A stretch of DNA of 38,314 nucleotides, taken from positions 1 through 38,314 of the forward strand of contig WJIL01000023.1 of NCBI GenBank assembly GCA_014730275.1, written 5' to 3'. The DNA is from Candidatus Lokiarchaeota archaeon. Its GTDB lineage: Archaea; Asgardarchaeota; Thorarchaeia; Thorarchaeales; Thorarchaeaceae. The notes under the pieces are model-generated. The model was given only the letters and a program-made list of their open reading frames with translations. It had not been told where the DNA came from and did no database searches. Positions 1,022-15,525 of this stretch are shown here, piece after piece. Numbering within the stretch: the first letter of the stretch is position 1; every line of letters starts with the position of its first letter. The position numbers were made by a program, and so were the translations under genes.

Positions 1022-1167
1022 TGGCGCTGGGAGGGGGATATTCGGGCCTACCAGAAGGTAAAGGCCTTTCGAACCCCCGCGTGCTTAGGCACACCAGCTA
1101 TCAGCCCGCCTGCTTAGTGCGATGGCAAGTAGCAGGCTGGCTCCATACCAGGCTAGGAGATCCCAGC
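1022..1167 (-). tRNA. tRNA-Ser(GCU) with two introns (anticodon loop and T-loop)
   Basis: Read on the minus strand, the acceptor stem is GCTGGGA (1161-1167) with TCCCAGC (1026-1032), discriminator G (1025) and an encoded CCA (1022-1024). A class II variable arm, GTGC-CTAA-GCAC (1081-1092), and discriminator G fit serine. The anticodon stem CCAGC/GCTGG (1136-1140 with 1094-1098) encloses CT-GCT-A, then a 30-nt insert (1100-1129), then A. This is the canonical intron position after base 37. The T-stem GGGGG/CCCCC (1074-1078 with 1033-1037) encloses TTCGA, a 29-nt insert (about 1040-1068), then AT. Removing the insert restores the standard loop TTCGAAT. Both inserts can pair internally, as expected for bulge-helix-bulge introns. 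Mature length with CCA would be 87 nt. The exact T-loop splice point is ambiguous by one base. Confidence 0.88.
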
Positions 1168-1286
1168 TTGTTCATGTAACGGAAGCCGTGGTACATCTTG
1201 TCTGGCTTATCGTGTTTCTCATAAACATTACTCTCTACCTATGATACAATCTAAGAAGGGAGTTGTCAATTCACGGCTTACACTAG

Positions 1287-1605
1287 TGGGTGCAGTGGCT
1301 CCCACCTTTCGGATGTCCCGTCGCAGATGACCCTTTCGCCGCGTTCCTCAAAGCAGCTACCTCCGGGGCTCCACCGCTCCCCCTTAGGGCTGTTCCCGCC
1401 AGGGCCTGACCCGTTTCGGGAGTCTAAGACAATCCCATCGATCCTACAATCGATGATATGCCCGTTGCAGACTCCGAAGACTGCTCATCAACGTCACACG
1501 ACGAACGTCAGCTGAAACGGGGTTCATCCTCATACATGGGTTACTGGCACCACTATAGCCTTGTGGTCATGGTCGCGGCTAACGACCTGCCCTACCCACT
1601 GCAAT
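1287..1605 (-). ncRNA. Signal recognition particle (7S) RNA
   Basis: The roughly 319-nt length fits archaeal SRP RNA. On the minus strand the ends pair as GCAGTGG (about 1596-1602) with CCACTGC (about 1292-1298), giving helix 1. Two small 5' hairpins, GGTCG/CGACC and CCAC/GTGG, carry loops with AGCC and GGCT, the complementary pair expected for the helix 3-helix 4 kissing interaction. Helix 6 is CATCGATT-GTAG-GATCGATG with a GNAR-type tetraloop, the SRP19 site. Helix 8 has GTCAGG-CCC-TGGC-GGG-AACAGCC, the SRP54-binding domain IV with a URRC-type tetraloop. It lies about 40 bases downstream of infB on the same strand and partners SRP54 and SRP19 in membrane targeting. The ends are approximate. 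Confidence 0.9.
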
Positions 1606-15416: not shown

Positions 15417-15525
15417 TGGTGGGCCGGGTGAGATTTGAACTCACGACCACGCGGACCCGAACCGCGAATCCACGCCACTCTAGCTCCAGCACGAAAATGT
15501 GGTAGAGTAGCTAGACCACCGACCC
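15417..15525 (-). tRNA. tRNA-Pro(CGG) with a D-loop intron
   Basis: On the minus strand the acceptor stem is GGGTCGG (15519-15525) with CCGGCCC (15421-15427), discriminator A and encoded CCA (15417-15419). The anticodon stem CGCGG/CCGCG (15462-15466 with 15450-15454) holds loop TTCGGGT, anticodon CGG. The T-arm is GTGAG-TTCAAAT-CTCAC. The D-arm contains a 31-nt insert (about 15480-15510) between GTCTAG and AGTGGCG. Removing it gives a normal proline D-arm and a mature length of about 78 nt with CCA. The insert is bounded by CTAG direct repeats and can pair through CTAGCT/AGCTAG, so its exact ends are ambiguous by a few bases. Position and size suit an archaeal bulge-helix-bulge intron at a noncanonical site. 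Confidence 0.88.

Follow-up and report, generated by a model that had tools for sequence, protein, structure and literature searches.

A single-copy tRNA-Ser(GCU) gene of Thorarchaeota with two predicted bulge-helix-bulge introns, one of them in the T-loop

A gene for tRNA-Ser(GCU) that is interrupted in its T-loop raises the question whether a functional tRNA can be made from it, and by which machinery the inserts might be removed. The gene lies in a window of 38,314 nt, the whole stretch of DNA analysed (contig WJIL01000023.1, to whose positions the unlabelled coordinates below refer), of a Thorarchaeota genome of 3.64 Mb (151 contigs; estimated 99.5% complete, 3% contamination). Its 146 bases are read on the minus strand, with the 5' end at 1167 and the encoded CCA at 1022-1024 (Table 1). 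Direct reading and folding gave an acceptor stem GCTGGGA/TCCCAGC, a D-stem of 3 bp, an anticodon stem CCAGC/GCTGG carrying the anticodon GCT with U33 and A37, a variable arm GTGC-loop-GCAC, a T-stem GGGGG/CCCCC and the discriminator G73. Excision of both inserts leaves a complete class II tRNA, whose anticodon loop reads CTGCTAA. In addition, the gene is the best match in the genome (C23:1025-1167, minus strand, E 3.6e-12) to model R2, which was built from mature Ser(GCU) sequences. The original prediction had the extent of the gene exactly right, and the insert lengths (30 and 29 nt), their junctions, the encoded CCA and the Ser(GCU) identity that it gave agree with this reading. Judged from its sequence, the locus is almost certainly functional: a tRNA-Ser(GCU) gene of Thorarchaeota, present in a single copy, whose two bulge-helix-bulge (BHB) introns would both be removed by splicing.

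Table 1. Positions of the features described in the text.
Feature	Position	Strand	Evidence or remark
tRNA-Ser(GCU) gene including encoded CCA	1022..1167	minus	direct reading, fold and match to model R2
Intron 1, 30 nt, position 37/38: CTTGCCATCGCACTAAGCAGGCGGGCTGAT	1100..1129	minus	relaxed BHB
Intron 2, 29 nt, position 59/60 in the T-loop: AGGCCTTTACCTTCTGGTAGGCCCGAATA	1039..1067	minus	unconstrained fold, covariation, empty-site relatives
TATA-like box TTTATG	1220..1225	minus	at -58 relative to the mature 5' end
Archaeal SRP RNA gene, in synteny with tRNA-Ser(GCU)	1292..1602	minus	Rfam RF01857, 103.5 bits
tRNA-Pro(CGG), 31-nt D-loop intron at 15478-15508	15417..15525	minus	strict BHB, second noncanonical intron in the window
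EndA alpha	L001:1201-1782	plus	catalytic triad
EndA beta	L002:1450-2049	minus	catalytic His absent

Both exon-intron junctions were examined for a BHB, the check proposed with the original prediction; folding gave a strict one in the T-loop, and a relaxed one can be drawn by hand in the anticodon loop. The T-loop intron shows the strict 3-4-3 motif when the whole precursor is folded to minimum energy without constraints: TTCG of the T-loop exon pairs with CGAA near the intron end, the 3-nt bulges AAA and TAT lie on opposite strands, and this helix is enclosed between the outer stem GGGGG/CCCCC and an inner helix of 5 bp. A cut after the second nucleotide of each bulge yields a mature 7-nt loop TTCGAAT, the same loop that had been predicted. 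When 29-nt inserts were shuffled 200,000 times with the T-loop exon kept fixed, only 0.05% formed a 4-bp exon-intron helix together with an inner helix of at least 4 bp.

The BHB of the anticodon intron consists of the helices CCAGC/GCTGG and TTGCC/GGCGG, the bulges TAC and ATA, and a central helix CTGC/GCTG with one U-U mismatch, by which it departs from the strict 3-4-3 form. The isolated anticodon arm favours another hairpin by 3.5 kcal/mol (-23.0 vs -19.5 with the anticodon stem forced). Position 37/38 is occupied in many Thorarchaeota, and perfect central helices (e.g. TTGC/GCAA) occur there in other members. The T-loop intron had been linked with splicing endonucleases of broad specificity, and this holds in part. 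Because its BHB is strict, the T-loop intron alone does not demand such an enzyme; the need for one arises rather from the anticodon intron with its relaxed BHB.

The serine gene is not the only interrupted tRNA gene of this genome. The T-loop site 59/60 is also split in at least four further tRNAs, namely Lys(UUU), Thr(CGU), Ser(CGA) and Ser(UGA), the last one with a relaxed junction. The first three, together with the gene in the window, are the four strong matches in this genome to model R1, which was built from five intron-bearing T-arms. The noncanonical intron that had been predicted for tRNA-Pro is real as well, since it forms a strict BHB in the D-loop (CTAG/CTAG, bulges CTA and AGT); ARAGORN finds this tRNA-Pro(CGG) gene but misplaces its 5' end at 15492. 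D-loop introns were also detected in Pro(GGG) and Arg(GCG) of the host genome. The tRNA-Arg(UCU) of the same genome (L225, C68:45748-45876) seemingly has an intron in the anticodon loop and, in the T-loop, an insert at another site, about 56/57.

Beyond this genome, model R1 gave matches with E 0.01 or better in 112 of 228 Asgard genomes and in 10 of 200 genomes in the phylum of a Bathyarchaeota centre; these frequencies are biased, as the small model favours introns of about 30 nt. Among 40 non-Asgard archaeal and bacterial control genomes, one showed a marginal match. BHB and a 7-bp acceptor stem were present in 32 of the 34 R1 loci checked, and ARAGORN, which called none of the 34 loci as they stood, called 29 after the insert had been excised. 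At locus L140 a BHB is present, and a search at the locus for the acceptor partner found none. The R1 match at C68:164812 (L117, E 0.03) gave no tRNA and was rejected. Two Asgard pre-tRNAs of about 180 nt (L132 and L136, probably Leu) are apparently interrupted by inserts at three sites, one being near positions 7-9.

The pairing of exon and intron is also visible in the covariation of the relatives. In an alignment of 43 distinct sequences, which was fitted to the model and thereby favours structure, 96.4% of the cells were paired, with 134 two-sided changes in comparison to 38 in shuffles; no shuffle reached 134, and every slid register was paired to 64% or less. At position 57 the exon-intron pair is A-U in some sequences and G-C in others.

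Model R2 was used to score the introns of Ser(GCU) across 38 genomes of the host's family. Six genes have no intron, four a T-loop intron only, 13 an anticodon intron only and three a D-loop intron only; T-loop and anticodon introns occur together in ten genomes, among them the host genome and G219 of the same genus, and D-loop and anticodon introns in two. In this lineage, one and the same tRNA gains and loses introns at the D-loop, at 37/38 and at the T-loop. Within genus g2, Ser(GCU) is intronless in G181, G182 and G183, and G184 has a 30-nt T-loop intron, the exons of G182 and G184 differing by one base. This pair is a natural empty site, and nothing else speaks as strongly for the mature sequence; the intronless orthologues in general support the mature form predicted for the gene in the window. 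In G185, the T-loop insert of Ser(GCU) (L232) seemingly lies near 55/56 instead of 59/60. The T-loop introns of Thr(UGU) in G221 (L122) and Thr(CGU) in G188 (L123) come from two different genera and match at all 30 nt, pointing to a transfer of introns between tRNA genes.

In Thorarchaeia, almost all T-loop introns are 29-30 nt long. A bias of model R1 was considered as the cause of this uniformity and rejected, as model R2, which contains no introns, also gave 29-30 nt in all 14 serine genes listed, a list that leaves out G185 and G201, where the junction of the T-loop intron is shifted or unclear. The T-loop introns of Thorarchaeia (L113-L146, L189-L236) usually fold into a hairpin whose stem reaches up to 9 bp and whose loop has about 5 nt.

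Other explanations of the interrupted gene have to be weighed against this background. It might be degenerate or silent, a copy in which a random insertion disrupted the T-loop, with another tRNA reading the codons AGC and AGU. Neither ARAGORN nor the Rfam tRNA model calls the gene, which was anticipated by the original prediction and fits such a view; however, ARAGORN does recognise Ser(GCT) when the T-loop insert is cut out, none of the stems is damaged, the insert shows both a BHB and covariation, and G219 has retained both introns. An intact second Ser(GCU), which the original prediction had named as a point against itself, was sought with model R2 in the whole genome and was not found, so that the gene in the window is the only one found. 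An assembly in 151 contigs could miss another copy, but at the estimated completeness given above a silent copy is very improbable. It is just as improbable that the insert is retained as an extended T-arm in a tRNA-like RNA with a non-ribosomal function. The very uniform intron length might suggest a structural role, yet the contact between T-loop and D-loop would be lost in the only Ser(GCU) found, sister species possess Ser(GCU) without the insert, and the BHB cut yields exactly the 7-nt consensus loop.

Still less probable is an artefact of assembly or binning, by which a contig of another archaeon, e.g. of the Thermoproteota, would have entered the genome. The multi-contig assembly and the estimated contamination leave some room for it; against this stand the IF2 encoded on the contig, which is 72-75% identical to that of three Thorarchaeota and about 50% to that of the next archaea, and the presence of the same gene in G219. 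Moreover, the order IF2, SRP RNA, tRNA-Ser is kept in Thorarchaeota Yap200.bin7.15 (genome G205), whose tRNA-Ser has both introns (this gene, found as L034, L119 and L229, was counted once). In many Thorarchaeota, the SRP RNA gene lies directly upstream of tRNA-Ser(GCU), and the tRNA promoter starts just past the SRP RNA 3' end. A conserved TATA-like box upstream also supports the gene: of the 21 Thorarchaeota Ser(GCU) genes examined, 18 have TTTAAG or TTTATG at -32 to -37. Two observations count against the preferred reading of a functional, spliced gene: the box of the gene in the window, at -58, is farther upstream than in most relatives, and the isolated anticodon arm favours the other hairpin mentioned above.

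Two EndA genes are present in the host genome, an alpha subunit with the catalytic residues Tyr/His/Lys and a beta subunit that lacks the catalytic His. The best PDB match of the alpha subunit is EndA of A. pernix (3p1z_B, E 3.6e-53), and at the site of the residues K44-P45-R46 in the so-called Crenarchaea-specific loop of that enzyme, it has K-P-K. This agrees with the rule described for the loop, i.e. Lys, then Pro or Val, then a basic residue (PMC12397907). Hence, the heterotetramer-type endonuclease suspected for this lineage is predicted to be encoded, to judge from the two genes, the loop lysine and a partner without His. A gene for RtcB was also identified (E 1.6e-181). Each of the 30 alpha subunits inspected from Asgard archaea (L001 and L147-L175) has the K-P-K/R loop; these were the best-scoring loci and not a random draw. 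A pair of EndA genes occurs in most to nearly all Asgard genomes.

Based on these genes and folds, the following course of events is proposed. Transcription would start near the upstream TATA-like box. In the pre-tRNA, TTCG of the T-loop exon would pair with CGAA at the intron end, as folded, and CTGC of the anticodon loop with GCTG, a relaxed site written by hand, which would place a 3-nt bulge on either side of each 4-bp helix. Each bulge would then be cut after its second nucleotide by an (alpha-beta)2 splicing endonuclease, as is expected from the family of this enzyme, and RtcB would probably join the exons. The product would be a tRNA with the 7-nt T-loop and the anticodon loop CTGCTAA given above.

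Introns in the T-loop and D-loop, and several BHB introns per tRNA, are established in Thermoproteota (PMC4033280, PMC8450103, PMC6379350). The introns of Thermoproteota, including Thermoproteales, share with those of Ser(GCU) the BHB geometry, the cut sites, the T-loop position and the occurrence of several per tRNA; however, the host is a member of the Asgard archaea here, and R1 matches are shorter in Thermoproteota (31-45 nt matched vs 46-47 nt), where just 10 of 200 genomes gave any. The original prediction was right that the T-loop intron is genuine, but the organism does not belong to the Thermoproteota with which it had mainly connected such introns, and noncanonical introns had already been published for other Asgard classes. 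According to the main text of PMC11291895 (2024), introns are present in 92-95% of the tRNA genes of Atabeyarchaeia and Freyarchaeia, often noncanonical and often several per gene; that main text contains no T-loop case, no introns of Thorarchaeia and no analysis of the endonuclease. No report on tRNA introns of Thorarchaeia was found in the open-access literature searched, outside of which most subscription papers lie. The T-loop permuted tRNAs of Thermofilum and Cyanidioschyzon are joined at the same 59/60 junction (PMC3218864), but Ser(GCU) has the normal gene order. With the (alpha-beta)2 EndA of A. pernix, the predicted enzyme shares the catalytic triad, the loop of Lys, Pro and a basic residue and the separate structural partner; it differs in its Asgard host.

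The tRNA-Ser(GCU) gene itself is a further case of an already known kind of noncanonical intron in Asgard archaea. The less expected features are the near-fixed intron length of 29-30 nt and the phylum-wide loop of the endonuclease. That Asgard archaea as a whole combine an endonuclease with a Crenarchaea-type loop and hairpin introns of 29-30 nt recurring at the T-loop of many tRNAs is a tentative proposal, somewhat more likely to fail than to hold. In PMC6379350 and PMC12397907 the EndA loop is described as crenarchaeal, Asgard archaea being unmentioned, and the loops of eukaryotic TSEN2 and of Crenarchaea are proposed to be convergent (PMC12397907). A loop shared by Asgard archaea as a whole would make a common descent with that of TSEN2 worth testing.

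These observations extend T-loop introns and a loop-bearing endonuclease of the heterotetramer type to Thorarchaeia and to much of the Asgard phylum. In genomes of this kind, essential tRNAs are missed by the tRNA callers tried here, and orthologues with and without introns in one genus make gain and loss of introns directly testable. Among known prokaryotes, Asgard archaea are most closely related to eukaryotes, and the findings bear on the origin of eukaryotic tRNA splicing, which is now confined to 37/38, from an archaeal system. If the loop is indeed Asgard-wide, the archaeal ancestor of the eukaryotic TSEN would have had it, and the TSEN2 loop may descend from an Asgard-type loop instead of being convergent, contrary to PMC12397907; a system of broad specificity would then have been narrowed by eukaryotes.
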